Below are positions 19,378 to 36,997 of a stretch of DNA of 64,000 bases, piece after piece (position 1 is the stretch's first letter; every line of letters starts with the position of its first letter). The DNA comes from Desulfosporosinus youngiae DSM 17734. GTDB lineage: Bacteria; Bacillota; Desulfitobacteriia; Desulfitobacteriales; Desulfitobacteriaceae. A model generated the notes under the pieces. It was not told the DNA's origin, did no database searches, and worked only from the letters and a program-made list of their open reading frames with translations. The stretch is taken from contig NZ_CM001441.1 in NCBI RefSeq assembly GCF_000244895.1, positions 2,934,226-2,998,225 of the forward strand, written 5' to 3'. The translations under genes were made by a program, and so were the position numbers.

Positions 19378-19953
19378 TTATATAAAAACCGGATTTAGGT
19401 CTATTACTAAGTCTTGAAAAATTGATAGTGCAATTTTGTCATTCTCAGTATATATTTCAGGCCTTCCGTATCTTTTGGATTTTCCTAATATAAATACACT
19501 AATGAATTTCTGATCTGGTTCTACTATCCAATATTCTTTAACACCTGCTTTTTCGTACTTATTAAATTTTATGATTTTATCGTTTCTTGTTGATGGCGGA
19601 GAAATTATTTCAATGATCATGTCGGGAGCTCCGAGACAGCCTTTATCATCTAATTTTGATTTATCACAAATAATAGAAATATCGGGTTCAACTACGTTTT
19701 TAAGATCATTTTCGTTTTTATCACATTCTTGGGGCAATCGTACACAAAAGGGGGCTGGATATACTTTGCATGACTTCCCTGTCAAATATACTGCGATTTG
19801 TTTCGATAATTCCATTAGTATTTCTTGGTGTATGCGTGTCGGCGTTGCTTGCATGTAAGGTATTCCGTCAATGATTTCCCATCGCTCTTCTTCCGGCCAA
19901 TTTAGGTAGTCGGCGTATGTGTATTCTTTTCCTGCTTGAGGGTGTGACATCAT
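19378..19953 (-). CDS. Uma2-family (DUF820) restriction-endonuclease-like protein, copy 1
   Basis: The protein has 191 residues from ATG 19953, seven bases after AAAGGAG; a GTG at 19959 is possible but overlaps that spacing. The PD-(D/E)xK-like core is visible as EPDISIICDKSK, then PDMIIEIISPPSTRNDKIIKFNKYEKAGVKEYWIVEP, with Asp, Glu and Lys in the expected order. The N-terminus (YTYADYLNWPEEERWEIIDGIPYMQATP) is typical. Such proteins are abundant in cyanobacteria and some Firmicutes, and their role is unknown. A related copy at 37337-37915 has the same orientation beyond the DUF6603 cluster. Confidence 0.88.
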   Translation of the reverse strand: MMSHPQAGKEYTYADYLNWPEEERWEIIDGIPYMQATPTRIHQEILMELSKQIAVYLTGKSCKVYPAPFCVRLPQECDKNENDLKNVVEPDISIICDKSKLDDKGCLGAPDMIIEIISPPSTRNDKIIKFNKYEKAGVKEYWIVEPDQKFISVFILGKSKRYGRPEIYTENDKIALSIFQDLVIDLNPVFI

Positions 19954-20513
19954 TAACACTCTCCTTTAATTTAAGCTTTTGGCATAAAGTTCTTAGTAGC
20001 CTTTTTCCACTTTTGTATCTCAAATTGAGCTTGATCCAACGCTATCCATTAGTTCATTTTATACCATTTCGAGATACAAAAGACAAGGGATTTAACAAAA
20101 AGGTATCTCAAACGTTAAGCCTGGCGCCGGCCGGCAGCTCAATAATTGAGATATATTTTATTGATTAAAACGCATGCTCTATTTTAAAATTTACAATCTA
20201 TCCATTTAATAAAAATGTATCCAATTTATCCAAAATGTAGTTGATTGTTACAAATTATTTCGATATGCTATATATGGTACATGAAGCCTTTTTTCATTTT
20301 GACATAGCTTATACCCACACCCCAGACTTGATCAGGTCTGACGTATTGAGCGTGATAACGTTTGCTGAGATTGGGTTTTGGATTAATTGTGATAATATTC
20401 ATCAATTTCATTAAACGCTGGACCACTCAGGCAAATGAATAAAAGGTAAAAGTAATTCACCCCAGCGATTCAGCATCGCATGCTTTCACATACATACAAG
20501 GAGGCGTATTGTA
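19954..20513. promoter_or_regulatory. Promoter region with nested inverted repeats upstream of the DUF6603 cluster
   Basis: This 560-bp gap separates the divergent Uma2 gene and the cluster. It holds a perfect 12-bp inverted repeat (cttttgtatctc 20010-20021 and gagatacaaaag 20071-20082), a further tatctcaaa at about 20104, and two CTCAA-type palindromes (ctcaaattgag 20019-20029; ctcaataattgag near 20138). A separate 18-bp imperfect palindrome, cagacttgatcaggtctg (20323-20340), lies closer to the first gene. Repeated TATCTCAA-like boxes suggest binding of a regulator, but no regulator gene is nearby. No clear -35/-10 pair could be chosen. Confidence 0.5.
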
Positions 20514-21056
20514 ATGAATGAAATGATGTTAAACGATCCGAATGGCCTGGAAAACAATGTACTTGCGTTTGTAGATTTAACACTTCTCAACTGTAAACTT
20601 AAAGGGGTTTATCAATACCAGGTTTTAGATCCTTCAAAGGCAGATAGTGAAAAAAGAACTCGAATCCTCGTTATACCGACCGATCCGGAACCACAAGGCA
20701 TGAGACTGACTGAGCTGATTACTGAAGTCAACAAAATTATTACTGATTTTGGCGGTGGTCAACCTGTTACTGAAGAGGATATGAAAGCAACACTTACTTC
20801 AATGGGTCTTGATGTTTTTAATAACATTGAAATACAAATGCGACAACTTTTCATTTACGTTGACAAATCAACTATTGCGGCGAATACCAAACCATTTGAG
20901 TATGCGCTCAACTTTGTGATTCTAAATCCTGTTAAGCCGGATGAGAGTCTTAAAATATTCCATATTGATTCATTGGGACTTGCTGTTTACAACACAAAAC
21001 GCGCTAAAATTATTGAGCGAATGAAACTTGAAAATATTGATGAGCTCCTAAAATAA
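20514..21056 (+). CDS. First gene of DUF6603 cluster: uncharacterised 180-residue protein
   Basis: ATG 20514 lies behind AAGGAGGCG. The protein is acidic and cytosolic-looking, with no signal peptide, membrane span or cysteine motif. It reads as alternating strands and helices (VLAFVDLTLLNCKLKGVYQYQVL; a helical C-terminus TKRAKIIERMKLENIDELL). No family is recognised. It is separated by only 14 bp from the next gene, in the same orientation, and heads a run of nine genes, so it is probably a small component or adaptor of the same system. Confidence 0.75.
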   Translation: MNEMMLNDPNGLENNVLAFVDLTLLNCKLKGVYQYQVLDPSKADSEKRTRILVIPTDPEPQGMRLTELITEVNKIITDFGGGQPVTEEDMKATLTSMGLDVFNNIEIQMRQLFIYVDKSTIAANTKPFEYALNFVILNPVKPDESLKIFHIDSLGLAVYNTKRAKIIERMKLENIDELLK

Positions 21057-21070
21057 AGGGAGCGGAGGAT

Positions 21071-23863
21071 ATGAAAGTACAAGATGCTGAGTCACTTGAT
21101 TTAAAAGTAGCGCTTTACAGCGATTTTTATATTAATAACGCACTTTTTCAACTTGTTTTCCTAAACTCTCCCAAAGGTACAGCTGTATCCGGGCAGTGGA
21201 TTAATCGGGATTTTATTTTTAAAATGCAGGAAGTTGCTGAATATTTCGGTGTTGAATTTCCTGACTGTCTCGATTTTGAACTTTTTATTGAAACGATCCG
21301 TTTAAGATACGCTACAGTCAATCAGTTGATTGATTTCAACGCAGTAATCCGTGACTTCGGGAGTTTGACTTTATCGACCAAACTCATTGGAACAAACAGA
21401 AATTACAGCTTTGAGATGGTATTTAATCAAAAATTAGAGCTTTCGAGCCTGCCGATTGTAGGCCAATTTTGTGACGACGGCGATGGTTTTCTCTTTAAAA
21501 AAATAGATTTAGCGTACACTGCAAATGTTGAGTTCGTATTTTCTATCGTTTCAGAACTCAGAATAAAGAAAATTCCATTAGACTTGTCTGTTGACTATAG
21601 ACAGTCATTAAAAAAACAGGTGAAAAGCCTTGGCTTAAATGCCGAACAGCCAAAGAACACAATTTACTGGCTTAAAATCGATAAAGGGTTCAGCGTCCTA
21701 TACTTTTCACAAATTGGGGTGAGCTTAAACGGCTCTGACTTGAAGCTTTATCTCGACGCGAGCTTTACAATTGCCATGCTGCGTGTCGATTTTTATGAAC
21801 TATATGTTTCTACATCCCTTAAAAAGCTAACCGACATTGGCTTTGGCTTAGGCGGGTTAATGGTAAATGTGGAAACAAAAGCATTTAGTTTAATTGGCGG
21901 ACTGTATAAATCTCAAGAAGAAGAGTGTCTTTACAACGGTTTGCTTGGATTAACGCTTTCAAAATACAGCTTCATGGCACTGGGATCTTATGGACAGCTG
22001 CCTGGAAGTGGAGAAATGAGCTTTTTTGCCTACCTCATGATTGGTGCCCCAATGGGTGGACCGCCGTACTTCTTTGTAACAGGCTTAGCGCTGGGTTTTG
22101 GAATCAATAGAACACTTAAATTACCGAACTTAGACGGTGTAAGGACGTTTCCATTAGTTGCTGCAGCTATGGGCGGCAGTAGTGCATTAAAACCTGACAC
22201 GCCTCCTAAAGCGGCATTAAGCGCACTCAGTAAATCGATTGTACCGATTAAAGGTCAGTATTTCTTTTCTGCGGGCATACGGTTTACTTCATTTGGAGTT
22301 CTTGAAACCTTCTTGCTGCTCAACGTTGAACTTGGCAACAATGTTGTTATTTCACTGCTAGGGTTAGCAGACGCTTCCCTACCGCCAAAAGTATCAGGCC
22401 TGAATCCGATTGCCAGGGCAGAATTAGCCATTAAGGCAGTGATTGATATTGGGGCTGGAGAAATTATAATCATGGCAGCTCTGACAGACCGTTCATTTTT
22501 ATTCCATCCCAGTTGCAAGCTGACGGGTGGTTTTGCTTTAGGCTTCTGGTTTGGCGGTGCTTATAAGGGAGATTTCATTGTAACGATTGGCGGGTGCCAT
22601 CACCCTCAGTTTGTGAATAAGCATTACCCTGATATTCCGGCACTGGGTGTCACTTGGATTTTGAATAAGAATATTTCGGTTAAGGGTGAGGCGTATTTTG
22701 CGTTAACACCAACCTGTATGATGGCGGGCGGTCAGCTTAAATTATTATTTGAGCTGGGCAACTTAAAGGCGTGGTTTTTTGCAGCAGCAGAATTTTTAAT
22801 GCAGTGGAAACCATTTTTCTATTCTGCACGTGTACAAGTAAGTGTTGGCGTATCGTACAGAATCAGTATTTTTGGAATTGGAAAGACCTTTAAGGTTGAG
22901 ATGGGTGCCGGGCTCAGTTTATGGGGTCCTGATTTCTCGTGTGAAGTCTATATAGATTGGTACATCCTATCCTTTACTATTGGCTACAACAATAAAAATG
23001 ACAGAAAACCAAAGCCTATCGAATGGGGTGAATTTGCTGAGAGCTTCATACCGGAATCCACTCAAAAAAGCAAAGCAGCTTCACAAATTCCATTACCAAT
23101 AAAAGGTAAGAAGGCAGCTGCCGAAAGTGCTTCTTTAGGAACGGTACTGAGTAAAACATCAGTAAGCGGCGGACTTTTAGGTGAATATAAAACGTCTCTA
23201 GGTGAACCCGCCTATATTGTTGACGGCTATAACGCAGCTTTTTCAGTAGACCAAAAGACGCCATGCAGCAAGTTGTACTACAATGGCAGTTTAGTGTTTG
23301 AGTTTGGCAAATCATTTGGTATTGTGCCTATGGCAGTCAGTAGTGTGACAATTGAGCAGAAAGTCAGCGTCTATAAAAAGGGTCAAACTACTAAAACAGC
23401 AAAACTATTTGCGACGCCAAGTCTGAAAAATGTGCCATCGGCTTTATGGGGCAACACAGACCCTGGTATCAATGGCGAACTCCTTACAGACGCGCCAATG
23501 GGTATGCAGCTGAATGCTTCAAACTTTGCAGAAGTACTTCACATTATTCCAAGTCAAGGCGCTTATAAAGAGTCTGTGCTCAGCCAAAGAGAATCTATAA
23601 CCAAAGAAATCCGTTATATAAGACCTAACTTTATTGACCCCAAGCATTACGACGAAGAGGAAGATGTGGTTATGGAAACCATTCAAAAGACAATAACAGA
23701 AAACGAGCGCCGCAACAATATTATTGAAGAAACCAGCTTTAATTTTGGTACGTGGAATTTTGCCAGGTTTAAACAAATTGGGGACAACCCTAGAGCGGTA
23801 TTTTTTACAGCGCCAAAGCTGAGAACAGAAGGCAGTCTGGAAATGCAGGTGATAAGACAATGA
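21071..23863 (+). CDS. DUF6603-domain protein, 930 residues
   Basis: ATG 21071 lies behind GGGAGCGGAGG. About residues 230-660 match what I remember of the DUF6603 family: glycine- and aromatic-rich beta strands with GGPPYFFVTGLALGFG (about 330-345), FLMQWKPFFYSARVQVSVGVSY (about 575-595) and GLSLWGPDFSCEVYIDWYILSFTIGY. Residues 1-220 are a globular N-terminal region and 660-930 a linker plus beta-rich tail. There is no signal peptide. The repeated amphipathic strands recall a beta-barrel or solenoid, but the structure is unknown to me. The stop overlaps the next start (ATGA), so the two proteins are translationally coupled. DUF6603 proteins usually sit in clusters of large uncharacterised genes, as here. 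Confidence 0.82.
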   Translation: MKVQDAESLDLKVALYSDFYINNALFQLVFLNSPKGTAVSGQWINRDFIFKMQEVAEYFGVEFPDCLDFELFIETIRLRYATVNQLIDFNAVIRDFGSLTLSTKLIGTNRNYSFEMVFNQKLELSSLPIVGQFCDDGDGFLFKKIDLAYTANVEFVFSIVSELRIKKIPLDLSVDYRQSLKKQVKSLGLNAEQPKNTIYWLKIDKGFSVLYFSQIGVSLNGSDLKLYLDASFTIAMLRVDFYELYVSTSLKKLTDIGFGLGGLMVNVETKAFSLIGGLYKSQEEECLYNGLLGLTLSKYSFMALGSYGQLPGSGEMSFFAYLMIGAPMGGPPYFFVTGLALGFGINRTLKLPNLDGVRTFPLVAAAMGGSSALKPDTPPKAALSALSKSIVPIKGQYFFSAGIRFTSFGVLETFLLLNVELGNNVVISLLGLADASLPPKVSGLNPIARAELAIKAVIDIGAGEIIIMAALTDRSFLFHPSCKLTGGFALGFWFGGAYKGDFIVTIGGCHHPQFVNKHYPDIPALGVTWILNKNISVKGEAYFALTPTCMMAGGQLKLLFELGNLKAWFFAAAEFLMQWKPFFYSARVQVSVGVSYRISIFGIGKTFKVEMGAGLSLWGPDFSCEVYIDWYILSFTIGYNNKNDRKPKPIEWGEFAESFIPESTQKSKAASQIPLPIKGKKAAAESASLGTVLSKTSVSGGLLGEYKTSLGEPAYIVDGYNAAFSVDQKTPCSKLYYNGSLVFEFGKSFGIVPMAVSSVTIEQKVSVYKKGQTTKTAKLFATPSLKNVPSALWGNTDPGINGELLTDAPMGMQLNASNFAEVLHIIPSQGAYKESVLSQRESITKEIRYIRPNFIDPKHYDEEEDVVMETIQKTITENERRNNIIEETSFNFGTWNFARFKQIGDNPRAVFFTAPKLRTEGSLEMQVIRQ

Positions 23864-25149
23864 GCAGAGGCATTCGATTTTCACAAATGACCGTTCCGCC
23901 TTTAGAGGTTGGCGAATATGAAATTAAGGTTGAACAAGTAACAAACTTAAAAGTGGCGCTTGCATCAGAATCTTTGAATATAACCGTTGCAACGGAGCGG
24001 TTTAGCATACCAGGCGGTCAGGTTTATTCGGTATACCCGCCTGCAAGTGCTGTCGGTGATTACAGCGAGTGTTTGCCGCATATTGTTTTAAAACGCAGAA
24101 CTTTACCTTGGGAGATGAAATTAAATAATGAGCTGCCTGAAATGCCTTGGCTGATGCTGCTTGTATTAGACGAAACTGATGTGTTTTCAGTGGTGAATTC
24201 CAATTATCAGGAAGCCATTCAACCTGAATTGAACACCTTTGTTCCTAATCTAAAGCTTGAAGCTCATGAAAAGGACGATTCGCCGTGCAGTTTTGTAACT
24301 TTGCCGAAGAGTCTTTTCACGGAGTTGGTGCCTTACGAAAGAGAACTGTGTCTTTTGGCTCATGGCAAAGGTGTCAGCCTGGATTATAAGGTAACCGACG
24401 AAACCGTGAAGGATGACTGGTTTGCGACAATTGTTGCCAATCGATTTTGTCTTATGCCATTGGATGAAACCCACGCCATTACTCATACGGCACTATTGGT
24501 GTCACTTGAAGGCTTTGAAAAATGCTTAAAGGATTCAACGCAGCGCGAAGAAATCTTGAGTGGGTGTGAAAACGTCAGAATGATTGTTTTAAGCAGTTGG
24601 CAGTTTTCAATGGCTAAACCACTCTTTGATTTCGGATCTGTCTTTACAAACTTAAAGGCAGGCATGATGGAAACACCCTACAGCGGAACGAATGAGTTGG
24701 TTCAAAAGCTCTGCAATCAGGGCTATATGCCAATGAATCATCAGATTCGTGATGGCAGTCAGACTGTTTCCTGGTACCAATCACCGTTTATACCCTATGC
24801 TGAAGAACCTGTTGAACTGAGGTGCGCACAATTTGCGGATCAACTCCTTTGCTATGACCCTGAGTTGAGTATGTTTGACGTTCGCTACGCAGCAGCGTGG
24901 CAGCAAGGCAAATCAATGGCTTTGACAGATCAAGGATTTGCACAGAAGCTTTTTGAGTGGCGCCTGAACAATCAAAAAACAGTCAAGACCTCTAAGTACC
25001 ATACTCTAATGTTAAACCATTTAAATGACAACAGAAACAAGGTTTTACCACATCATTTGACACAGCAGGCATTAAAAACTGAACTTAAAGCGTCTCTAGA
25101 GGATGCCATCGCGGAGGTGCTGGGAAATGCCAATTCGACTGGCCCATGA
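23860..25149 (+). CDS. DUF6603 cluster: uncharacterised 429-residue protein
   Basis: It starts at the ATGA overlap with the DUF6603 gene. The N-terminal 90 residues are beta-rich and include VYSVYPPASAVGDYSECLPHIV followed by KRRTLPWE; I recall similar 'PP...LPHIVLxRxTLPWE' proteins beside DUF6603 genes, without a function. The middle is a mixed alpha/beta fold (MPWLMLLVLDE) and the C-terminus is helical. No catalytic motif, signal peptide or membrane segment is visible. The coupled start implies a fixed ratio to the DUF6603 protein and perhaps a direct complex. Confidence 0.75.
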   Translation: MSRGIRFSQMTVPPLEVGEYEIKVEQVTNLKVALASESLNITVATERFSIPGGQVYSVYPPASAVGDYSECLPHIVLKRRTLPWEMKLNNELPEMPWLMLLVLDETDVFSVVNSNYQEAIQPELNTFVPNLKLEAHEKDDSPCSFVTLPKSLFTELVPYERELCLLAHGKGVSLDYKVTDETVKDDWFATIVANRFCLMPLDETHAITHTALLVSLEGFEKCLKDSTQREEILSGCENVRMIVLSSWQFSMAKPLFDFGSVFTNLKAGMMETPYSGTNELVQKLCNQGYMPMNHQIRDGSQTVSWYQSPFIPYAEEPVELRCAQFADQLLCYDPELSMFDVRYAAAWQQGKSMALTDQGFAQKLFEWRLNNQKTVKTSKYHTLMLNHLNDNRNKVLPHHLTQQALKTELKASLEDAIAEVLGNANSTGP

Positions 25150-25981
25150 ATCCCTAAGGATTTTTAATTCAGAACAAGAGCATCATTTTTATCAAAGCAT
25201 GCGTGAAACTATTAACGATTCCGGAGAACTTTTAGAAGACGATCTACTGGCGTGGTTAAGCGAAATCTGTCTTTTAAAGAACGTTTCCTTTCATTACTTA
25301 GTACCCTCAGAAAACCTACTGCCAAGCAATTCAGTTCGTTTTTTCTACGTGAACAGCAATTGGCAGAGAGTCATTATGGATGGTGCTTGCAGCTTAGGCA
25401 GGACGGCGTCTGCAGACTTACATCACGATGAAGTTCTATTAAAAAATGCCTACGACAATGTCTTTAAAAGAATTCAAGCCGTTAGACCCCTATTACAAGG
25501 TAAGTCGGTAGCCAATGCGTCCATGTCAGAGCCCGTTTCTATTATGGGAGGATTTCTTTTAAGGTCGCCTCTTGTCAGAGGCTGGAGAGGTCTGGAGTTT
25601 CAAGCCTATGATCATTCAGATGCAGTCATTAAAGCACTCAGAATAGAAACCCTTTCCGACGAAGTTCTAATTGGGCTCTTTGCTGGCGTACCGTATAAAC
25701 TTGAAATTGCTCAACCGCCAGAAGGCTTTTTTTTTGGATTTAACCACATTAATGACAAGTTTTATAAGCGGCTCAGAAGTTTTGAAGACGGGTCGCTGCT
25801 TAGCGAAACCGACACTGTTGAGGTCGTGTTAAAAAATAAAAATGCCAGAACAATCGATGTAGCGGCGACTGCTAAGAATATGGAGACTTTTTTCAGTAAA
25901 CCATTTACATCGGCTGAGTTCGCACTTCAAATGATTAAGACCCCTTACCTAGGAAAAGTCATCCGCAAAGATGCAAAATAA
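25127..25981 (+). CDS. DUF6603 cluster: uncharacterised 284-residue protein
   Basis: ATG 25127 has GGAGGT nine bases upstream inside the end of the previous gene, giving a 23-bp overlap; an earlier ATG at 25103 lacks such a site. The protein opens with a helical region (RLAHESLRIFNSEQEHHFYQSMRET) and continues with mixed strands, including VRFFYVNSNWQRVIMDGACSLGRT and GGFLLRSPLVRGWRGLEFQAYD. A hydrophilic C-terminus follows. No family is recognised. The overlap and shared strand place it in the same operon. Confidence 0.75.
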   Translation: MPIRLAHESLRIFNSEQEHHFYQSMRETINDSGELLEDDLLAWLSEICLLKNVSFHYLVPSENLLPSNSVRFFYVNSNWQRVIMDGACSLGRTASADLHHDEVLLKNAYDNVFKRIQAVRPLLQGKSVANASMSEPVSIMGGFLLRSPLVRGWRGLEFQAYDHSDAVIKALRIETLSDEVLIGLFAGVPYKLEIAQPPEGFFFGFNHINDKFYKRLRSFEDGSLLSETDTVEVVLKNKNARTIDVAATAKNMETFFSKPFTSAEFALQMIKTPYLGKVIRKDAK

Positions 25982-25995
25982 AGGAGTGTGAGATC

Positions 25996-27624
25996 GTGTA
26001 TCCATCGTTATCTGATCTTAAAAATAAGGTCTTAAAAGAAATTGATCCAAGAATTGGCTATCTGGAACTGGATTTTTCAAATGAGAATCACTATAAATTT
26101 TTTACAGAGCAAGTGGGTGGGTTGAAGAAATTTGAAGAAGAAAACCCGGAGCTTATAGGGGTTTTGAAAAAATTAAGAAAAGAGAAAAAAGTAAAAACAG
26201 AGCTATTTCGAAACGATGGTTACCATGATGGGCCAGACAATCAAATGGCGATTGAAAACCTTTTAGTTAGAGAAAGGCACTCAGTTTCAAACGATGTAAA
26301 CGACGGAAATGATCCGGCAGGCACAGGGCTGGCTGAAATTAGAGCAGACTATATCAACACCAAAAAGAGGATTAAAGTTGTTACGGAGTTTCGTGATGTT
26401 ACCTTAAATATGCTCTTAAGCACACTTGAGGAGTATGTAGACAATACGAATCTCTATAACGGCATAATAACCGCTGATTACTCAAAACTGGTACAGGATA
26501 AACCAAGGCAATTTTTAATTATTAGTACCTTTTATTGTTCTGAGGAGCATCAAAGCGGGGGGTCTACTGAGCTTAAATTGAATGCTTATGTTACAAAGCA
26601 AGACAGTTTTATGGTTAAAAGCAACAAAGACATGATCAAGAGTTTTACAGTCAATGCGCCAGTCATTCAAGAAAAACATAAAAAGGACCCTAATCACGAT
26701 AAAGTTCAAGTGTCTTATTTAAGAGATGGCGTTATACCAAACTACGACTATTCTTATCCATATGATCCATTTATAGATGACAAGCATGAAAAAATATTGG
26801 TCAGAATGCCGTTTTCAGTGACCGTTGAGGCAAATGACGGCTTCTGGATTGACGGTATGGCTGAAGAGTATGGCTATGATTTGTGGCTTACAAATGTAGT
26901 CAATGGTCAAATTCGTGCCTTTGCAAATTACTCAGAAATTATTCAAAGAAAAGATGCTTTTAACAGCCAAAATCAATGTACGAAAATGACCTTCATTTTT
27001 CCGGATTCTTGGCGCAACATCATAGACAACTCAAAGCTTGGCTACCAACCCAATACCAATGTTGACTTCTACGGTTCTTTTAAAGTACTCATTACGGATG
27101 AGTTTTCTTCGCTGCCTATCGGTGTTTCGGTAAAAAGCTATGGCGACTTATACGACAGACTGAATCTTCAATGTCCAAAAATTTGGATTCAATGGGGCTG
27201 TGTTGCCAAAGAAACCCTCATAACCTTAGCAGATGGCACATTTAAGGAAGCCCAGTACGTGACAATGGAAAATTTAATTATGACTCGTAATGGGACAGGG
27301 GCAAAACTAACCAATATATACAAAGGGCCTCAAGGGAAGATTCAAGAAATCATCACAGACAGCGGCAAATCCATCAAAATGACCAAGGACCACATCATCT
27401 ATTCGGAAAATGGTCTGCTGCCTGCCTTTCAGTTATTAGTGGGCATGAAGATCAGAACAGTAGATGGTCTTGAAAGTGTCATTCAAAATAACGAGGTTGA
27501 CTATAACGACACCGTTTACAATTTCCAATTTGCCAATAATCAAGTCATTATTGGCAATGGAATGTATATAGGCGACTATATCCTCCAAAATTCAATAAAG
27601 GAGATCACTCAATATGAAGATTAA
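25996..27624 (+). CDS. DUF6603 cluster: 542-residue protein with C-terminal Hint (hedgehog/intein) domain
   Basis: GTG 25996 follows AAGGAGTG. Residues 1-400 are an unrecognised mixed domain (predicted helical start, then beta-rich). From Cys402 a Hint domain begins: CVAKETLITLADGT (block A), then the TKDH motif (Thr463, His466) in the block B position, GLLPAFQLLVGMKI, and a final strand region ending YILQN at about 532. The usual terminal His-Asn is Gln-Asn, followed by Ser533 and only ten residues. This fits a self-cleaving bacterial Hint unit with almost no C-extein. It could release or tether residues 1-401, as hedgehog proteins do. It overlaps the next gene by 11 bp. Confidence 0.82.
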   Translation: MYPSLSDLKNKVLKEIDPRIGYLELDFSNENHYKFFTEQVGGLKKFEEENPELIGVLKKLRKEKKVKTELFRNDGYHDGPDNQMAIENLLVRERHSVSNDVNDGNDPAGTGLAEIRADYINTKKRIKVVTEFRDVTLNMLLSTLEEYVDNTNLYNGIITADYSKLVQDKPRQFLIISTFYCSEEHQSGGSTELKLNAYVTKQDSFMVKSNKDMIKSFTVNAPVIQEKHKKDPNHDKVQVSYLRDGVIPNYDYSYPYDPFIDDKHEKILVRMPFSVTVEANDGFWIDGMAEEYGYDLWLTNVVNGQIRAFANYSEIIQRKDAFNSQNQCTKMTFIFPDSWRNIIDNSKLGYQPNTNVDFYGSFKVLITDEFSSLPIGVSVKSYGDLYDRLNLQCPKIWIQWGCVAKETLITLADGTFKEAQYVTMENLIMTRNGTGAKLTNIYKGPQGKIQEIITDSGKSIKMTKDHIIYSENGLLPAFQLLVGMKIRTVDGLESVIQNNEVDYNDTVYNFQFANNQVIIGNGMYIGDYILQNSIKEITQYED

Positions 27625-29536
27625 CTTTCAATATTTCGCAGTTAAATATGTTGCCAGCGTAGTGGGTTATACCGATGAAGAAGCTCAACTGGTTTCTTCA
27701 ATGTGTCAGTTTATTAGTGACAACAATCAAGATGCGAAAATTTATACCAATTATGCGAGCTTGTCTCAAAGGATTATTGACAACAACCTCTTTACGGGCA
27801 GTGGAGACCATTGTACTGTACCACTTCTTTTAACCGCACTTGAAAGCTATGACGACTTAAAAGCCTTAAGCGACAAAGACCTTCAAGAAAAAATATTGAT
27901 TCCCTTTGAGTACTTTCCAGCGTATCAAATTGAAGACGACACAGATTACCTGGTCAAACCAATTTCAGATATTGGCGACAATGATCTTTTTGCTAAATTT
28001 TTCAAGGATGCCAAGGATTTGTACTCGACACCTGAAGAGAATGGACTGGAAGACTCCAGTCTGACTCACCCTCAGAAGAATGCCCTTGTTCGACTTGGCA
28101 TACTGATGCATATTTTGTCTAATACCTTTATTCACGAGCCCTTCAATGGCTACACAGCCGATAAAAATGCGCTTATCCTCAACGAAGCGTACAACTCGGT
28201 TACTTATGAAAATATAACCAGCCATTATACACCTGATAAATACAAGGATTATCCAAATGTAGGCAGTGTAAGGCTTGGAGGCGCCGATAGCGATTATAAC
28301 GTTCAGTTTTTTGCTCAAAATACAATAGACAAACGCAAAAGTCTAACGCGGGTGAATGAGCCTATTTTTAAGAAAGCTGGTCGTGGGGTCTATAACTTCT
28401 TAATGCTGTTCAAAAATAAAAGACCGTCACAGCAGGATTGGGAGAACAGTGTTTATCCAAACTTGCAAAAAGCTTTAAACACAAACTATACGAGCATAAA
28501 CGATTTACAAGAGTGGTGGTCTAAAGTGACGCCATTCCAATACCATTATGAAGCAGAAGCTTGTAAAACAAGCCTTGTAAGGCTGGAAGACCTTAACAAT
28601 CCTGAGAAACAAGGGTATTTCGATTTCTTAGTGACAGTCGATCATATTAGAAAAAGTGTTATAAAATCTGGAGGTGTGTCAATGGAAACCCACGGATTCT
28701 CAACTGCTCAAATTTCTTGTGAAGTAGAAAACCCTAATTTTGACGGTACAGACTTAACTGTGAATACAAATGTGTCCCTCAGCAAAAAGCTGGACTGTAT
28801 AGGTGTTGTTTTAACTGTGACAGAATCACCTTCCGGGATTCAGATTGTCACAAAAGAACACCAGTTTAAGAATACTTCCAAGTTCAAAATGGATTTTACC
28901 CTTCCCATTCCTTTAGACGACAAAGAATATGATCTGAACATCGATTTTTCCTGGAAAGAAAATGGCATAAACAAGAGCTCCACTTATTCTAACAGCCTTA
29001 AAATTAAAGGCAACAACAGCATTATTGCAACTAAAAATCTCGTTCACCCTTGCAGCAGCACAGGCAAAGAAGTGGTTCAAGTTATTAATGGAACAGACAG
29101 CGGCATTGGCAACTACAAATATCCACTAAATGACAATTATACCGCTCAAGACGGTTCGCAACAGCTGGATTTGTATTTGCCAATTGAGTTTGAGCTGCAG
29201 TTGATTGAGCATTATAAAATACTTAAATTGGACAACTATTCCTTCACCCTTAAAGAGTCGCCTGACAAGGTTCTGACTTATTGCAACAATAAAAAATACA
29301 TCAACACAAAAGTGGACAAGGAAGCAGGAAGCTTTAGCATTAAAGCGACAGAAGAATGGAAAAATCATATTCTGACAAAGCCTTACACATTGCGAAAAGC
29401 AAGTCTAATCTTTGAATTGGACGTTCAATTAGAAGTCATTTCATCAGACGAAGAAGGCTATAGAATTATAACGCTTAAGTCTAAAGATGGAGCACCGCTT
29501 AGTAAAAACATTGACTTCTTCTGGGACTTCCAATAG
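27614..29536 (+). CDS. DUF6603 cluster: DUF6765-like helical domain plus beta-rich C-terminus, 640 residues
   Basis: ATG 27614 overlaps the Hint gene, whose 3' end supplies an AAAGGAG ribosome site. Residues 1-340 resemble what I recall of DUF6765, an all-helical family related in layout to zinc-dependent phospholipase C. Marks are NFQYFAVKYVASVVGYTDEEAQLV at the N-terminus and LGILMHILSNTFIHEPFNG (about 160-178). The family's usual 'DFHYYAT' is NFQYFAV here, so two likely metal ligands are changed and enzymatic activity is doubtful. Residues 350-640 are two or three beta-sandwich-like segments. No signal peptide. Part of the same operon. Confidence 0.72.
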   Translation: MKINFQYFAVKYVASVVGYTDEEAQLVSSMCQFISDNNQDAKIYTNYASLSQRIIDNNLFTGSGDHCTVPLLLTALESYDDLKALSDKDLQEKILIPFEYFPAYQIEDDTDYLVKPISDIGDNDLFAKFFKDAKDLYSTPEENGLEDSSLTHPQKNALVRLGILMHILSNTFIHEPFNGYTADKNALILNEAYNSVTYENITSHYTPDKYKDYPNVGSVRLGGADSDYNVQFFAQNTIDKRKSLTRVNEPIFKKAGRGVYNFLMLFKNKRPSQQDWENSVYPNLQKALNTNYTSINDLQEWWSKVTPFQYHYEAEACKTSLVRLEDLNNPEKQGYFDFLVTVDHIRKSVIKSGGVSMETHGFSTAQISCEVENPNFDGTDLTVNTNVSLSKKLDCIGVVLTVTESPSGIQIVTKEHQFKNTSKFKMDFTLPIPLDDKEYDLNIDFSWKENGINKSSTYSNSLKIKGNNSIIATKNLVHPCSSTGKEVVQVINGTDSGIGNYKYPLNDNYTAQDGSQQLDLYLPIEFELQLIEHYKILKLDNYSFTLKESPDKVLTYCNNKKYINTKVDKEAGSFSIKATEEWKNHILTKPYTLRKASLIFELDVQLEVISSDEEGYRIITLKSKDGAPLSKNIDFFWDFQ

Positions 29537-29545
29537 GACTTAGCG

Positions 29546-32500
29546 ATGAAGAAACTAATAAACTCTGAGATGAGTACGTTACTTGTACCTATGAAAGTTT
29601 ACGCCCTGCGGGTGGGTAAATCCCCTGTACCAACGGTTTTTACCAACTTAGCGGACGATTTTACAAGAATAAAGCTAAACCCATTAGGCGATTTAGTTCC
29701 ATCTGAGCTTATGTCAGACAAAACCACTGAAAAACCAGGCATTCACGTGCATTGGTTTATTCCAAAGAGTCTTAGACAAGGCATTCAAGCATCCCCCGAA
29801 GAACCACCTGTTTATCCGAGAGTGCCAAATCGCTATATAATTACTCGATTATGGAAAATGAAAAACGAATCAACCGTAAGCGTTAAAAACTGGCTTGTGG
29901 AAAGCGATGTTTTACAATTAACCTGCACACCCGAAAACTATAACGATGACAGTTGTAGTTATCCGTACCTTCAAGACAGTCAGCTGCCTTACAGATTTTT
30001 AGGAAGAGTTTACCCATATGGTACGGTTGTTAGTAAAGCAGAAACTTCGGTAGATGTGTTAACAACCATAAACAGCGGTAATCCTGTGTTTTCAGTCGTG
30101 TATTCTTATTGCCGAAACGTATTTGGTTTTTACGATGATTTACTGGATGACAACCAAAAAAGGATTGAAAATGCTGACATTAGTTACAGCATTAGAGGCT
30201 ATTATGAAGGCGAAGCGCTCATTGTCAAGGATGCTGATGAGTGCTTAGGGCTTTACAACTGGAAGCCTAGTGCAGCCGCAGCATTTCCGGCAAAACCATT
30301 TTTACATGGATTTATAACCAATATCAGTTGGGAATCGGATTTGGTAGATTATAACGGTCCCTTTATCCGTGGGTTAAAATCGCCTGAGCTAGCGGTCGGC
30401 AACACGTCTGCCGAAGCTCTTTCAGCGCTAAAAAGCAGTTCTTTAAAAAACGAAAATCTGATGAAGGTTCTGCTCAACAATAAAGTTCATGAGTTGACGG
30501 AATTAAACGGTGTATTCAAATCGAATTATTCAGAGCATGAACAGCGCTTTATCACCAAAAGCGAAGAGAAAATCTATACCTTGCAGAGTTTGTTAAACAG
30601 TAAGGACTATCAAGAGCTGCCCGACATACCTGCCCTTGACAAACGTTATTATGACAGGTTGAAAAGACTAGAAAGTGAGCGTACACAATCGATTTACGAG
30701 CTTAATGCCACAAAATCTGAAATAAACGATATTTGGTCAAAGTACGTTCTAAAATCATTAATACTTTTTCCACCGGCAGACAAAGCCGCAGCTCAAAAAT
30801 GGATGAAAACGTACGAAGAAATGCTTAAAACTCTTTTTGAAAAGAGCCAACAGCTAAACGATCAAATTCAAGAACTCCAAAAACAAATAGAGTTCTTGAC
30901 TCAGCAGCTAAATGAGGATTTGAAAAACAATTATGAAGCTCAGAAAACAGCGGGTGATCGGTATTTTGAGCCTAATGCGCCTGTTTTGCTACTTTCAGGC
31001 GTCGAAAGAAATCATGTTTTTAAGCCCAAGAATGAAGACGGAAAAGACGACCCGTTAATTTGCAGAAGCATCAGCGACACGCTGGACTACCTGCCAATTG
31101 CCTTTAAACTTAGGGGACAAGACTATGCAGTTCAAATCCAAAGAACCGACCTTATAAAACCCGACGCATTAGTGGGTGAGTGTAAAGAAGTGTTACTGGA
31201 AAGTGCGCTTTTTCTGGGTTGTAATAGCAGCTTTATTTTAGAAAGTATTATCAATAAGACTGGCATTCAAAATCTTACAGCCGCTGAAAGAGCCTATCTT
31301 CTTCAAGAAATATTAACAACCCAAAAAACACCCTTTAGTGAAACCGGCAAAATCTACCCAGATGCTAACTGCATGAATTTTTGGGAGGGTATGAATTGGG
31401 AACCCATAATGCTTTACTGGAGAGGGCTTTATTATCCTGACAAAGAGCTTTTAACCAGTCAACCCAGCTTGAAAAATTGGAAACTGCAGGACAGTGATTA
31501 TACTTATATAGGTGAAGCAGTCACTACAGACCAGCCTGTAACCTTAGAGGGTCGCATACTGTTAACCCCGCAGGTGACGGATTTGCTTTATGAAAGGGTT
31601 CAGAAATACCTAGCGGATCATGATTTAAACCGATTAAAAGGACTTAATGAACTGGGAGTATTATCGCAGATGCTGGACAGCTTTAATGACAGATTTCTCA
31701 TGAATTTATTGGTACTCCGGTTTCCGGCAATCATCTACAAAAATGGAAGTGTAGATCTTGCTGACGCCGTAAGGCAGGCACTTTCTGACTTCATTATTGA
31801 GAAACCTATTTTCAACAGCTTCTTTTCGCCTTTACGCGGCGGGTTCTTTAAATTCGACAAAATCAGACTGATAGATACTTTTGGAGAATTTCAAAATGTT
31901 GAATGTAAGTCTCTGGCAATTTCAGAAGACCTAAGCCCAGAGAAGGGTAAACATGGGACTTATGTCATGCTGCCGCCAAGATTCATGCAGTCTACAAAGC
32001 TGCAGTTCGACTTTTTAGACTCAAAAACAAATGCGCCATGCGACTTTAGTCTTAAGGACACCCCAATTTGCGGATGGGTAATTCCCAATCATATTGACCA
32101 AAGCTTAATGCTCTATGACGAAAGCGGTCAAATGTTAGGCAGTCTGGTCGTCACAGGCTTTAAAGACAGTCCTGTCATGTTGAGACCAGCTGCCGGACAC
32201 TCTGAAATTCCAATCATGCAGCGTGAAATAAAAGCATTTGCAGATGAAATTTTGTCTAGAAGCAGTCAACACGAAAACGTTTTAACACCACTCCTTGGCA
32301 TTATCGATTCATCCTTTTGGGACATACAAGGCAGTGGGGGCGCTCAAAGCACTGGTTTAAGTCTATACATAGGCAGACCCCTTGTTTTGGCAAGAGCACG
32401 CATGAGCATTGTGCAAGAGGGACCTTTAGCTCGGTTCAAGGTGCTTGAGAGCAATACAAAAACCCCTGTACCTATTCCGCCGACGTCTATTGAGTCTTTT

Positions 32501-33031
32501 AAAATGCCACTTGTTGTAGGGGAAAGAGACCATTTAGAAGATGGTGTTATTGGTTTCTTTATCGAAAATGGTCAGAAAACGTATGCTCAGTTCAACAGCA
32601 TATATTGCCAAGAAGAAACCTCTGACTACTTTAATAAAAACAATAAGGCAGACATTCCAATGGCAGTTTCAGGCAAGAATCAGACGCTGACAGTGCTCAT
32701 TGACCCGCTTCAAACTATGAATCTCATTTCAGGTATGCTGCCGGTTATGACACAGCGCATTCCTCAAAATCGAATTGAGACCGCGCTTAACTCACTTTAT
32801 TTAACACTTTATACAGGTCCAATATTGGTTGGTAATGAGCCGCTGGTTATGCCCTATGCCAACATACCTGACAGAGCTTGGTCGTTTATTGTGCCGTTGG
32901 GAGATGACAAATGGTATGAGACTTCTGATCTGTATCCTGCAAATGGAAACGCATTTTTAGCAAAAGACCCTATAGGTATTGCAGAAGGTTTTTTGAAACT
33001 GAAAGCAGGTGAGAACCATGAAACAAAATGA
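29546..33031 (+). CDS. DUF6603 cluster: 1,161-residue protein with central coiled coil
   Basis: ATG 29546 lies nine bases after the previous stop with a weak ribosome site. The N-terminus has KPGIHVHWFIPKSLRQG (about 63-79) and RVPNRYIITRLW. I associate this 'GxHxHW...P...VPNR' signature with large uncharacterised proteins next to DUF6603 genes. A long heptad region spans about 365-470 (MLKTLFEKSQQLNDQIQELQ and flanks). It is followed by NAPVLLLSGVERNHVFKPK, another shared block. The C-terminal 600 residues look globular. No signal peptide or membrane helix. Length and coil suggest a scaffold or fibre-like structural protein, which is inference. It overlaps the next start by 14 bp. Confidence 0.78.
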   Translation: MKKLINSEMSTLLVPMKVYALRVGKSPVPTVFTNLADDFTRIKLNPLGDLVPSELMSDKTTEKPGIHVHWFIPKSLRQGIQASPEEPPVYPRVPNRYIITRLWKMKNESTVSVKNWLVESDVLQLTCTPENYNDDSCSYPYLQDSQLPYRFLGRVYPYGTVVSKAETSVDVLTTINSGNPVFSVVYSYCRNVFGFYDDLLDDNQKRIENADISYSIRGYYEGEALIVKDADECLGLYNWKPSAAAAFPAKPFLHGFITNISWESDLVDYNGPFIRGLKSPELAVGNTSAEALSALKSSSLKNENLMKVLLNNKVHELTELNGVFKSNYSEHEQRFITKSEEKIYTLQSLLNSKDYQELPDIPALDKRYYDRLKRLESERTQSIYELNATKSEINDIWSKYVLKSLILFPPADKAAAQKWMKTYEEMLKTLFEKSQQLNDQIQELQKQIEFLTQQLNEDLKNNYEAQKTAGDRYFEPNAPVLLLSGVERNHVFKPKNEDGKDDPLICRSISDTLDYLPIAFKLRGQDYAVQIQRTDLIKPDALVGECKEVLLESALFLGCNSSFILESIINKTGIQNLTAAERAYLLQEILTTQKTPFSETGKIYPDANCMNFWEGMNWEPIMLYWRGLYYPDKELLTSQPSLKNWKLQDSDYTYIGEAVTTDQPVTLEGRILLTPQVTDLLYERVQKYLADHDLNRLKGLNELGVLSQMLDSFNDRFLMNLLVLRFPAIIYKNGSVDLADAVRQALSDFIIEKPIFNSFFSPLRGGFFKFDKIRLIDTFGEFQNVECKSLAISEDLSPEKGKHGTYVMLPPRFMQSTKLQFDFLDSKTNAPCDFSLKDTPICGWVIPNHIDQSLMLYDESGQMLGSLVVTGFKDSPVMLRPAAGHSEIPIMQREIKAFADEILSRSSQHENVLTPLLGIIDSSFWDIQGSGGAQSTGLSLYIGRPLVLARARMSIVQEGPLARFKVLESNTKTPVPIPPTSIESFKMPLVVGERDHLEDGVIGFFIENGQKTYAQFNSIYCQEETSDYFNKNNKADIPMAVSGKNQTLTVLIDPLQTMNLISGMLPVMTQRIPQNRIETALNSLYLTLYTGPILVGNEPLVMPYANIPDRAWSFIVPLGDDKWYETSDLYPANGNAFLAKDPIGIAEGFLKLKAGENHETK

Positions 33032-34313
33032 AGCACTAGCAGAAACGATTGAAGGCGTTGACAATTGCTTGTATTTAATGGATGTTAATGACAATCGCAT
33101 TTATGTGAATACACAAGATATTATTTTAAAAGATCAACCCGTCATATCCAATCTTGTTTTTCAACTCATGAACCCAGATCGAGTGCATAACATTACCTTC
33201 AAAAATCCCAAAATGCTGACAGCAGAAGCTATTCTAAAGAAACTGCAAAATGGTGAGGGAGTGGAAGACACTTCGTACATTCGATTTTTCCTTCCCTATG
33301 GCAGCACCATGGGTGATTTCATTGACGCAGAACGCGGGAAGCTTATAACGTTCGAAACGGAATCCGATGATTGGTCAGTAGCAGAAGGTGTGGTTGAAGA
33401 CAGACATTTAAGTTTTGTCATCAGTTGTTATAAACAAAAGGTTATAGAAACGCTGATTAGCGTCTATTTTAAATGCAAAAACATTCAATCTTATTGCCCA
33501 GAGGGATTGACCTATGTTTACGCCGAAATTTCAAACGTTGTAGGCATTCAAGACGTCATTAAAATGTTTCCAATTCAGAAGGTCAAAGCAGTACCGCAAG
33601 TTTGTAGGTACATACCAATGCCGTCAACCGCAGGGCTGAATGAGGAAGTAACTTTAAAATGGGATGTCAGAGGCGCAAGTTCCGGAAAAATATTGCCAGA
33701 GGGCATAAACATTTTTAAAATGCCATCGCCTGAGTTAAAAGTTCATGTGAATCGCAATATGTCCTATATGCTCAACGTTGAAGGGAGTGGCTTTAATATC
33801 GACTCGGCAGCCAATGTTTATGTTTCACCGCCTAAACTAAAAAGCTTCAATTATGACGTTAAAAGTCGGACACTTTCCTGGGAATCGGCATACAGCGCTT
33901 CATTAACTTTAAAAACCGGTAACATTCAAAAAGACGTTGATGCCTGTGGGAATTTTGTGGTACCAATAGGTGAATTCCAACAAGCAACTTTGAAAGCTAA
34001 GGGCAGTTCATACACCCTTTTTAAGGCGATTAGCCTTCAAGGCAGAGCTTTTAACACACCTCAGATTTTTGATTATGAATGCCAGGCATACCCGGACTAC
34101 TTCTACACAACATTTACTTGGCAGACAAACAATGTAAATCAAGGGGAGCTTTACATTTCTCTAGACAATGATACATGGTACAAAGTCTCGCAGGTTTGCA
34201 GCGGTGATTTTGAATATACGTCTAATCGCCCAGTGGTTTCAGCAAAGCTCTGCTTAACGCAAAGCAGCGGAAACCGTTACCCCGACCTCGTTCTAAAGAA
34301 GGAGGCATTTTAG
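33018..34313 (+). CDS. DUF6603 cluster: 431-residue protein with Ig-like segments
   Basis: ATG 33018 follows AGGTGAG; a GTG at 33009 is upstream of a proper spacing. The first 185 residues form a beta-rich domain (DNCLYLMDVNDNRIYVNTQD). From about 190 the chain reads as consecutive Ig-like sandwiches: TAGLNEEVTLKWDVRGAS, then PPKLKSFNYDVKSRTLSWESAYSASLTL and a third segment ending in VVSAKLCLTQSSGNRYPDL. Similar 'G-x-V-x-L-x-W' strands occur in the next protein, so the two may be paralogous in part. No export signal. Probably a structural or binding subunit. Confidence 0.72.
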   Translation: MKQNEALAETIEGVDNCLYLMDVNDNRIYVNTQDIILKDQPVISNLVFQLMNPDRVHNITFKNPKMLTAEAILKKLQNGEGVEDTSYIRFFLPYGSTMGDFIDAERGKLITFETESDDWSVAEGVVEDRHLSFVISCYKQKVIETLISVYFKCKNIQSYCPEGLTYVYAEISNVVGIQDVIKMFPIQKVKAVPQVCRYIPMPSTAGLNEEVTLKWDVRGASSGKILPEGINIFKMPSPELKVHVNRNMSYMLNVEGSGFNIDSAANVYVSPPKLKSFNYDVKSRTLSWESAYSASLTLKTGNIQKDVDACGNFVVPIGEFQQATLKAKGSSYTLFKAISLQGRAFNTPQIFDYECQAYPDYFYTTFTWQTNNVNQGELYISLDNDTWYKVSQVCSGDFEYTSNRPVVSAKLCLTQSSGNRYPDLVLKKEAF

Positions 34314-35569
34314 TGGATCGGTATATTCAGGGACAAATTTGCGGGTCAAAGTGGCTTATGCTCAGTGAAAAGACATGTGATAAGGACATACAAATTCGCA
34401 ATCAAATTAACGTCGAAATTGAAAATGTCAGTTGTGTGAAAAGCATCAGTTTCATAAATAACCTAAAAGACGGTGACCCCATACCAGACATTGGCGTAGA
34501 GCAGCACAACATTTCAGTCATATATGTGTACTTTCCTTTAGGCGATGGAGAGGCTTATTTAACGACAGAAAGTCTTGCCAATGATTTTGTATGTTATGCA
34601 CCTTACAATTGGAATGTAGAAAAGGCATATGATAAAAACCAGTACGGTGTCTATTTCAAGCTGTTTCCTACAGCAGGCTATACATTTGAGCCGAGAGAGA
34701 AAATGTATTTTAGTATAACCAATATGGTGACTTACGGCAGCTTAGAAAAAATGGTCTATGTGGCTGTGGATTTTACTTCCATTTTTATGGAAGAAGGAGA
34801 AAATGCCAATGGCACCGATTTTCTGGCGTGTTTCAAAAAAAGAATGCTATTAGAAGTCGTGTCTTTTGAAGCAACACCTGCAAGAGCAGCCGTAGGAGAC
34901 ACTATTAAGCTGAGCTGGGTTGTTGGAGGTGACGCCGTTAAGTGTATACTGACCCCAGGTGATCTTGAAGTCAGTAAGACTGGGAGTATTCAAACAAGCG
35001 TAACAGAAGACACTGAATTTATGATTTATGCAATAGGCGATGATCAACAAGTGAGCAGGTCCGCTACAGTATATATTGAAACGCCTATTATTCGCTTGTT
35101 CACCTGTAGTGCCAAGGACAACAAAATTCGTTATGGTGACTGCGTCACCTTCGAATACGATGTTCTGAACTGTTATAGCATCTTTATGAATCAAGGCATA
35201 GGGCGGTTAACAAGCAAAGTATTCAATGTGGTGCCAACACTGAAGTCAACGGATTATACTCTATGCTGTAAAGGTCCAAATGGATTGATAAAGCAGACAA
35301 TTACCATTAACATAACAGACTTCTTAGAAGTTAAAAATGTCGTTTTTTACAGATCAAAAAAATCGGATGGAAGCTATCAGTACACCTTGAGCTGGATTAT
35401 ACTAAACAACACTTCCAGTAAAATCATGACATCGGATGGTATTGTTAGAAGCCAAGATCAGCAAACCGGAAACATTACGTTCACAGATTCGTCTGGCAAT
35501 GCGCTGACAGTTAGGTTTTTATGTACTGGTAATGGTGGGCAGAAAATTGACAACGTGTATAGTGTTTAA
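34313..35569 (+). CDS. DUF6603 cluster: 418-residue protein with tandem Ig-like domains
   Basis: GTG 34313 overlaps the previous stop by one base and has an excellent AAGGAGG. An N-terminal domain of about 175 residues (YVYFPLGDGEAYLTTESL) resembles the start of the preceding protein in layout. Two or three Ig-like repeats follow, beginning EVVSFEATPARAAVGDTIKLSWVV (about 180), IIRLFTCSAKDNKIRYGDCVTFEY (about 258) and FLEVKNVVFYRSKKSDG. The 'ATPxxxxxGDTIxLSW' opening is typical of bacterial Ig-like folds used for binding or as spacers. It is the last intact gene of the cluster. Confidence 0.75.
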   Translation: MDRYIQGQICGSKWLMLSEKTCDKDIQIRNQINVEIENVSCVKSISFINNLKDGDPIPDIGVEQHNISVIYVYFPLGDGEAYLTTESLANDFVCYAPYNWNVEKAYDKNQYGVYFKLFPTAGYTFEPREKMYFSITNMVTYGSLEKMVYVAVDFTSIFMEEGENANGTDFLACFKKRMLLEVVSFEATPARAAVGDTIKLSWVVGGDAVKCILTPGDLEVSKTGSIQTSVTEDTEFMIYAIGDDQQVSRSATVYIETPIIRLFTCSAKDNKIRYGDCVTFEYDVLNCYSIFMNQGIGRLTSKVFNVVPTLKSTDYTLCCKGPNGLIKQTITINITDFLEVKNVVFYRSKKSDGSYQYTLSWIILNNTSSKIMTSDGIVRSQDQQTGNITFTDSSGNALTVRFLCTGNGGQKIDNVYSV

Positions 35570-35798
35570 TGAAAACTCAAAATCACACGCTAATAACAAT
35601 AAAGGCCTGACTTTCAAAAATTCGGAAGAACTACAGCGCCGTTTATCGAAGCATCAAAAAGCATGGGAAAGTTATACCCAGGCCATTGAAGCATATGATA
35701 AAATCTTATTGCTGTCACCAGATAATATTGAAGTTCATAAGAATATGGGCCTTGCCCTAAAAAGATTGGGAGATCTGCAGAGCAAGGAGGTACTGTAG
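35532..35798 (+). pseudogene. Tetratricopeptide-repeat remnant
   Basis: This open frame of 88 codons overlaps the 3' end of the previous gene and has no ribosome site for its nominal ATG. Its second half is a clean TPR unit (HQKAWESYTQAIEAYDKIL, then LSPDNIEVHKNMGLALKRLGD). TPR proteins are normally much longer, so this is most likely the stump of a gene fused to the cluster end by a deletion. It could also be a very short real TPR protein. Confidence 0.55.
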
Positions 35799-36784
35799 AG
35801 GAGATAGGCTGTATCGATTAGACATATGATAAAGCTTTGTAGTTGTCAATCAAATGAATTTATTAAAGAGTGAAATCCATACAAGAACCTGAAAAGATGT
35901 TTATGAAATAATGTTTAATACTTATTGCAAATGGGGTAGGGGATGATAATGTCTTCTTATTGTAAACCACTCTATAAGCTAAGGAACAAGTTAAAGAAGT
36001 ACCGTATTATACTGACGATTAGCTTAAATGTTAAGATGAACATATAGAAAATCCAACTACAGTTGGAAGACTTAATACGCGAAAGAATAAGAAGAAAAGC
36101 ACTTAATATTAACTCTTCACTAAATAGTCATTTAACGCATAGTTGATAGTGCAAGTGGTCAGGAATATTTTAATAAGTCATTGCTAATAACCCTAGAGAA
36201 TCCAATTCGTTTAGTCATGCATCACAATTTAACAATATAAAGTTCTGAATCGTATTATTAACACTTTCAACGCTTTGTATGGCACCTGTGGCCACAGTTT
36301 TCTCGGATCAGATGGTATTCCACACACTAGGCAACTATTTCAAAAGCCATACAGAGGTTTCTAGCGGCTAGTTTTTCAGTCCTATATATAGGACTCTGAC
36401 AAAAGATCCGATGGATAACGATAGTCCCAAACCCGATGTTTAATTATCATTTGAGTTTATCTAAATGCCCAATGTGCATACCTAATTAAAAAATCACAGA
36501 TAGCCAGAAAATCGCTGAGAAGGATAAATTGCGTTTATAAATCCTGTAAACCCGCATCGAGCTTTTCAGGCTATTATCTGTATAGCCCCCTGCGATAAAA
36601 CACACTCTACTTTACATAATATCTATTATAGGACCCAAAATAATATTCTTATTAACCTTTGAAGTCATTACAAAAAACAAAAATCACTGCAGATAAATAA
36701 ACAGTGATTTTTTGAATAGAGTCACGATCCAAATCTGCCGATAAAAATTTTCGTTAAGCAATATATAATTTGCCTTCGTAAATT
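35799..36784. other. Non-coding or decayed stretch
   Basis: This 986-bp AT-rich stretch has no open frame of useful length on either strand. It includes an exact 18-bp palindrome (AGTCCTATA and its complement, 36378-36395) and a hairpin at 36681-36710. With the TPR remnant at its left edge it looks like eroded gene sequence; I could not identify what it came from. Confidence 0.5.
36677..36714 (-). terminator. Bidirectional terminator-like hairpin
   Basis: aaatcactg, a 12-nt loop, cagtgattt, with A-rich flank on the left and T-rich on the right. It is downstream of the small minus-strand gene at 36785 and could also end plus-strand transcripts. Confidence 0.7.
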
Positions 36785-36997
36785 TCAACAATGATCAATG
36801 AATTGATAATCTGGCCAATTGATTTGATGATATAATTTTGCTAGTTTAGGATCAGTAAAACTCAACCATCCGCCATCTCGTTTCAAATCGCCTATTCCTT
36901 TATACAGTGTCTCACTCTTTTTTTGTAAGTAGGAGCAATTATCATTCATGTGTAAGGTACACTTTTTAGCTGGTTGATCAACATCGAGCCAAACCAT
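36785..36997 (-). CDS. Small conserved-looking hypothetical protein, 70 residues
   Basis: ATG 36997 lies eight bases after AAGGGGG, a good ribosome site, and the gene is followed by a terminator. The peptide MVWLDVDQPAKKCTLH... contains C-x-L-H and a second Cys (NDNCSYL), then a basic middle and the segment RDGGWLSFTDPKLAKLY. No membrane segment. The C/H pattern could bind metal, but nothing proves it. Composition and signals support a real gene; function unknown. Confidence 0.6.
   Translation of the reverse strand: MVWLDVDQPAKKCTLHMNDNCSYLQKKSETLYKGIGDLKRDGGWLSFTDPKLAKLYHQINWPDYQFIDHC

Follow-up and report, generated by a model that had tools for sequence, protein, structure and literature searches.

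The question raised by this locus is what is encoded, together, by nine large and closely packed genes, several of whose products match no curated family. The genes lie in Desulfosporosinus youngiae DSM 17734, whose genome is complete (5.66 Mb), and were analyzed in a window of 64,000 nucleotides (contig NZ_CM001441.1, positions 2,934,226 to 2,998,225), to which coordinates refer unless another locus is named. One gene, P2, encodes a DUF6603 protein, and homologues of its neighbors accompany DUF6603 genes elsewhere. Because these families recur together across four phyla, the cluster is more than a chance arrangement: it belongs to a real co-occurring module with a core of DUF6603 and the P3/P4 family, joined in most loci by P7, and with partners of the fiber or lectin type. 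The reading tentatively favored here, which falls slightly short of an even chance, is that the nine genes represent the form taken in one lineage by a conserved module that would encode a multi-subunit, cell-targeting protein particle or complex. The genes and their products, with lengths in amino acids (aa), are:

20514-21056, + strand: P1, 180 aa, no curated family match
21071-23863, + strand: P2, 930 aa, DUF6603 protein, domain at residues 204-677 (window 21680-23101)
23860-25149, + strand: P3, 429 aa, N-terminal partner of the P3/P4 family
25103-25981, + strand: P4, 292 aa as the longest open reading frame (ORF), C-terminal partner of P3
25996-27624, + strand: P5, 542 aa, Hint domain from Cys402 (about 27199-27590)
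27614-29536, + strand: P6, 640 aa, DUF6765 at residues 1-305 (27614-28528), then a domain common to P5
29546-33031, + strand: P7, 1161 aa, probable coil at about residues 365-470 (30638-30955)
33009-34313, + strand: P8, 434 aa, paralogue of P9, in a probable receptor-binding (fiber/adhesin) family
34313-35569, + strand: P9, 418 aa, paralogue of P8, phrog_2155 match at residues 159-332

An initial annotation, made from the sequence of the window, had described nine same-strand genes that overlap or lie no more than 14 bp apart, and all nine plus-strand ORFs are indeed present at 20514-35569, with intergenic spacings from P1 to P9 of +14, -4, -47, +14, -11, +9, -23 and -1 bp. The end that it gave for the cluster, 35798, lies 229 bp too far and takes in a TPR-like ORF. 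The 47-bp overlap between P3 and P4 is probably a start called too early for P4, as P4 homology starts about 50 codons in, and the true start would lie further in. Profile scans gave no curated family match for P1, P3, P4, P7 or P8, and promoter and terminator scans of the cluster stayed near chance level.

The evidence for a module comes from 36 DUF6603 genes and their neighborhoods in Bacillota, Actinomycetota, Chloroflexota and Bacteroidota, which were searched with iterated profiles of the nine proteins; the tallies count loci and not independent events, as several loci are closely related and some contigs end early. The P3/P4 family adjoins DUF6603 in 35 of the 36 loci, P7 in 29 and the P8/P9 family in 18. 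The remaining families are rarer, with P1 in five loci (all Clostridia-type), P5 in five and P6 in four. All nine occur in three further genomes, one each of the same genus, order and phylum; in the last (L015), P5 is fused to P6, and the P1 homologue (11729-12376 of that locus) is inverted within an otherwise collinear operon. The recurrence of at least four families together, which had been proposed as a check on the cluster, is thus strongly borne out by the survey; the opposite pattern, with the homologues dispersed singly among genomes, was sought and did not appear. As for the searches with P2 itself, a single-protein scan of genome contigs returned no relatives, an alignment of four sequences led to four named loci, and an alignment of nine sequences was too diverse to serve as a query.

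The association also holds in reverse, when whole genomes are searched for the partners without requiring DUF6603. P7 occurs in seven of 350 Chloroflexota genomes, all seven of which have DUF6603 (Fisher p 3e-13, uncorrected for phylogeny), and P3/P4 in 10 of 345 Bacteroidota genomes, again all with DUF6603 (Fisher p 1.7e-16, likewise uncorrected). Among 61 relatives, P7 is found in the three with above-cut-off DUF6603 and in no others. Overall the module is rare and its distribution patchy, with DUF6603 above the cut-off in these 3/61 relatives, in 3/398 genomes of the same phylum, in 9/350 of Chloroflexota and in 14/345 of Bacteroidota. Plasmids or secondary replicons carry it in Streptomyces, Embleya and Paenibacillus; the core is carried by plasmid pSCL4 of Streptomyces clavuligerus ATCC 27064 and plasmid p-YT9A of Paenibacillus polymyxa YT9. 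A DUF6603 match is also present in the Desulfosporosinus sp. record JARLHV010000074.1 (L018). One plasmid of Paenibacillus sonchi carries P7 without DUF6603, and this was considered as an independent use of P7; it is read instead as a decayed locus because of its split P7 gene and a nearby transposase. Separately, a divergent DUF6603 subfamily without P7 (L063, L070, L071, L072, L074, L075) has proteins of about 1,640-2,230 aa and about 600-650 aa in fixed order in place of P7, with a P3-like protein in five of the six loci.

Gene fusions point in the same direction as the counts. In Paenibacillus, Streptomyces and many Chloroflexota and Bacteroidota, a single fused gene encodes P3 and P4 as a protein of about 720 aa. 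A frameshift between P3 and P4 was ruled out, since in relatives the two are encoded either separately or as one fusion. The fusions and the constant adjacency argue for a physical partnership. The model of the fused protein (A13) is of poor quality (mean predicted local distance difference test score, pLDDT, 42.6). The 100-residue coil described earlier in P7 is partly recovered, through weak coiled-coil-type matches at about residues 411-469 and nothing stronger. In one Bacteroidota locus (L105, 13500-19899), P7 is followed by two adjacent, similar-looking proteins of about 1,060-1,070 aa, the first of which has no Pfam match.

The clue to what such a module might do lies in the P8/P9 family. 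P9 residues 159-332 match phrog_2155, a 'virion structural protein' family (E 6.9e-12), and this is the nearest match to the Ig-like fold earlier ascribed to two of the proteins, since P8 and P9 match no Pfam Ig family. Relatives within the same module have a common core and differing ends, which consist of a seven-bladed propeller in L062, Collar in L059, a WD40-like domain in L065, Peptidase_S74 in L066, Kelch in L067 and F5/8 type C in L082; the repertoire includes Laminin_G_3 and a propeller of the lactonase type. In Chloroflexota operons, the protein encoded between P7 and the gene of an MBL-fold hydrolase carries a laminin-G-type lectin domain (E 1e-19) at the N-terminus and a tail-collar fiber match to phrog_1800 (E 9.5e-83) at the C-terminus. 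The family holds a second tail-collar match to phrog_1800 (E 2.9e-50), and one Bacteroidota locus has three adjacent stand-alone Collar-like genes, two of which were scanned and confirmed. In phage tails and injection systems, receptor-binding proteins evolve around a common core with exchangeable binding ends. Because the P8/P9 family likewise combines a common core with interchangeable binding-type ends, its members are probably receptor-binding (fiber/adhesin) subunits. The likeness to phage tail collar and S74 fibers (PHROG 1800, 1980 and 5481; Collar, Peptidase_S74) is one of homology at the C-termini of the relatives; unlike such fibers, these proteins belong to a bacterial module without other phage genes, and P8 and P9 of the window lack these C-termini.

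P2 is the most firmly identified of the core proteins, matching DUF6603 (PF20248) with an E-value of 2.6e-141 and 472 bits against a cut-off of 27 over profile positions 2-474 of 502. The DUF6603 and DUF6765 identities in the initial annotation are accordingly both above curated cut-offs. The model of P2, built without a deep alignment, has a mean pLDDT of 47.1, and residues 200-480, mostly at 65-85, are modeled as a long antiparallel beta meander. In a comparison of 25 sequences, most DUF6603 strands have one face that is almost entirely nonpolar, and for this reason contact with lipid is probable for the sheet. The model resembles the beta belt with which ApoB wraps lipid (Z 12.9, root-mean-square deviation, rmsd, 8.4 A) and many porin-like outer-membrane barrels (Z 10-12, rmsd 7-12 A; the model is only moderate). 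Tentatively, DUF6603 would be a lipid-facing or barrel-like sheet, although these matches leave the fold unproven. What the model has in common with outer-membrane barrels and the ApoB belt is the antiparallel meander with one nonpolar face; unlike them, DUF6603 has neither sequence homology to them nor a signal peptide, and it also occurs in hosts of the Gram-positive type. Profile searches of the PDB with P2, P7, P3/P4 and P8/P9 gave only coil-type or chance matches. P1 was considered as a stand-alone DUF6603 N-terminal module and rejected, since long DUF6603 proteins resemble it weakly and non-significantly in their N-terminal region.

P5 and P6 vary between lineages: the MBL-fold gene is part of the cluster in 11 loci, and the Clostridia-type version has P5 and P6 instead. 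P6 matches DUF6765 (PF20551; E 3.4e-23, 83.2 bits against a cut-off of 26.6, profile positions 1-262 of 325), and its C-terminal part is related to the N-terminal part of P5; the two form a single protein of 1077 aa in one case (L015). The Hint domain reported earlier in P5 is recognizable but falls below curated cut-offs (TIGR01445, 20.6 against 24.5 bits; the Pfam Hint models are also below), and a P5 relative in L019 narrowly passes PT-HINT (27.8 against 27.7 bits). As in Hint (Hedgehog/intein) autoprocessing domains, to which these weak profile matches point, P5 keeps Cys402 as first Cys and His466 as block-B His, and both are invariant in five relatives. It differs from them in that no C-terminal His-Asn pair, as needed for full splicing, is visible, and the domain would therefore fit cleavage at Cys402 rather than splicing. 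P6 may resemble motifs of the zinc phospholipase type. Enzymatic activity of P6 in the window is doubtful, because two putative metal ligands kept as His and Asp in L009 and L015 are missing. The earlier statement that the cluster holds no known enzymes needs amending in view of the MBL-fold hydrolase of the relatives. Its active-site motif is largely kept, and the residues invariant in six members include Thr63, His64, Asp68, His69 and the His-His-Gly motif, which we take to be those expected of an active hydrolase.

From these parts a course of events is inferred that runs from particle formation and release to the target, lipid contact and cargo. P2, P3/P4 and P7 would form the body, and P8 and P9 would be exchangeable receptor-binding subunits whose common part docks on the body and whose variable part recognizes a surface. 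After the particle has bound, the DUF6603 sheet may contact lipid, by membrane insertion or lipid binding. P5 (Hint) and P6 (DUF6765), which would replace the MBL-fold hydrolase of other lineages, are probably a cargo or processing pair, and the thioester chemistry of Hint would cut P5 at Gly-Cys402. In agreement with the initial annotation, a crude hydropathy scan showed no signal-peptide-like N-terminus in the nine proteins, nor any membrane-anchor-like stretch; as signal peptides are not seen, assembly would take place in the cytoplasm, and the complex would exit by lysis or another unconventional route. The suggestion of a multi-subunit particle or surface-like assembly thus remains the best reading in the light of the two-way co-occurrence, the fusions and the fiber and lectin domains in relatives, with the particle itself deduced.

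Several points weigh against this reading. The particle is predicted from gene content, any cargo is conjectural, and none of the body proteins (P2, P3/P4, P7) is homologous to a protein whose function is known. Lipid contact is tentative, because the mediocre DUF6603 model has a mean pLDDT of 47 and lies 7-12 A rmsd from its matches. P8 of the window has no fiber-domain match and P9 just one phage structural match, and the P8/P9-family match of several relatives is weak, spanning no more than about 60-90 residues; in distant loci the match to the core is weak, with full-sequence E-values of about 1e-4 to 1e-8 in several. P6 of the window has Gln and Asn at its putative metal ligands.

Other explanations account for part of the same evidence. 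The module could encode the producer's own cell-surface or matrix adhesion complex, such as a sheath, a biofilm component or a prey-contact adhesin, delivering nothing. The laminin-G, discoidin, Kelch and fiber domains of P8/P9 relatives and the large beta-rich proteins speak for this, but the hydropathy scan gave none of the nine proteins a signal or an anchor, and the module is accompanied by genes for the hydrolase or for Hint/DUF6765 proteins, which leaves adhesion alone unlikely. The export signals that are missing would be expected to be missing from a cytoplasmic lipid-binding or lipid-transfer machine, in which DUF6603 would form a lipid-lined groove with P3/P4 and P7 as scaffold and P8/P9 as adaptors, and both the nonpolar DUF6603 face and the resemblance to the ApoB belt (Z 12.9 at rmsd 8.4 A) would suit it. 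However, tail-collar fiber, S74 chaperone and lectin domains at the P8/P9 position are left unexplained by such a machine, as is the patchy, plasmid-borne distribution, and it is quite unlikely.

The fiber domains, the match of P9 to a phage virion structural protein and several large coupled genes without signal peptides could also come from a degenerate phage tail or extracellular contractile injection system (eCIS) whose body has diverged past sequence recognition. Proteins of eCIS are not known to carry export signals. These systems, as in Streptomyces coelicolor, are particles built from sheath, tube, baseplate and terminator proteins, and they are encoded by horizontally spread operons of coupled large genes with fiber-type receptor-binding subunits (PMC10020575). 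The module is like them in its coupled large genes, its fiber-type subunits and the lack of visible export signals, but its body is of unrelated families: profiles for sheath, tube, baseplate, terminator and capsid proteins matched none of the nine proteins or ten flanking genes, where the phage and prophage hallmarks capsid, terminase and portal were not found either. Relatives of DUF6603 (P2) and P7 are absent from 50,697 phage records, a pattern scan of viral contigs was empty, and Foldseek against viral structures gave only matches with low template modeling scores; a degenerate tail or eCIS is still less probable than a lipid machine. Least probable, and very much so, is an intracellular conflict or anti-phage defense operon. 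The patchy distribution, a TIR-domain gene nearby and CATRA/CHAT conflict genes near the Streptomyces copy would suit it, but these neighbors do not recur across the 36 loci, the PADLOC defense profiles give just a coil-level match of P7 to LmuB (E 0.0037), and the fiber and lectin domains do not fit.

The targeted particle may also be put more specifically, as an unrecognized, non-phage, fiber-armed particle that attaches to cells by exchangeable adhesins and uses the DUF6603 beta structure to act on lipid membranes or through them, with the MBL or Hint/DUF6765 proteins as cargo; this fuller version is possible but doubtful. Provisionally, none of the core components has been tied to a known system. 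DUF6603, PF20248 and DUF6765 are named in no paper found by a literature search that left out most subscription papers. At least three large, near-obligate proteins recur with fiber-like binders across four phyla, and the core families have neither a described function nor a sequence-related solved structure. If the module does encode a targeted particle, bacteria would have one more type of delivery or attachment machine, and a non-contractile one.

The surroundings of the cluster in the window include the following features:

18768-19229, + strand: TIR-domain protein (E 7.9e-11), between hydrogenase/complex I-like genes and the cluster, in a stretch common to congeners
19378-19959 and 37337-37915, both - strand: two Uma2-family genes, 58% identical, near the homology edges and flanking the cluster
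35562-35798, + strand: TPR-like ORF of 79 aa, overlapping the end of P9 and probably outside the module

No such TPR-like ORF was seen after P9 in the two relatives that were compared; in the window it is followed by about 1.5 kb without any ORF of at least 100 aa (within 35562-37336). Flanking sequence in congeners is about 90-96% identical; the left edge of homology falls at 19,239-19,292 for four genomes, a fifth having it at 18,622, and on the right homology starts at about 38,024 in two. As congener homology stops to the left and resumes to the right of the cluster, the interval between these edges is, by this sequence comparison, lineage-specific. In the empty-site comparison the two flanks lie on separate contigs of the congener, so that a clean insertion is not demonstrable.

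In other loci, a PLD-like protein of the Paenibacillus polymyxa locus was not counted as part of the module, as gaps of about 500 bp and another gene separate it from P7. About 7 kb upstream of the DUF6603 gene on p-YT9A of this species lies a cassette (L006, 3063-12221) with annotations for baseplate assembly protein V (twice), DUF4280, a GH-E nuclease and ankyrin repeats. A small recurrent family adjoins the module in three loci (L062, 1472-2557; L067, 17203-19248; L073, 2-715).
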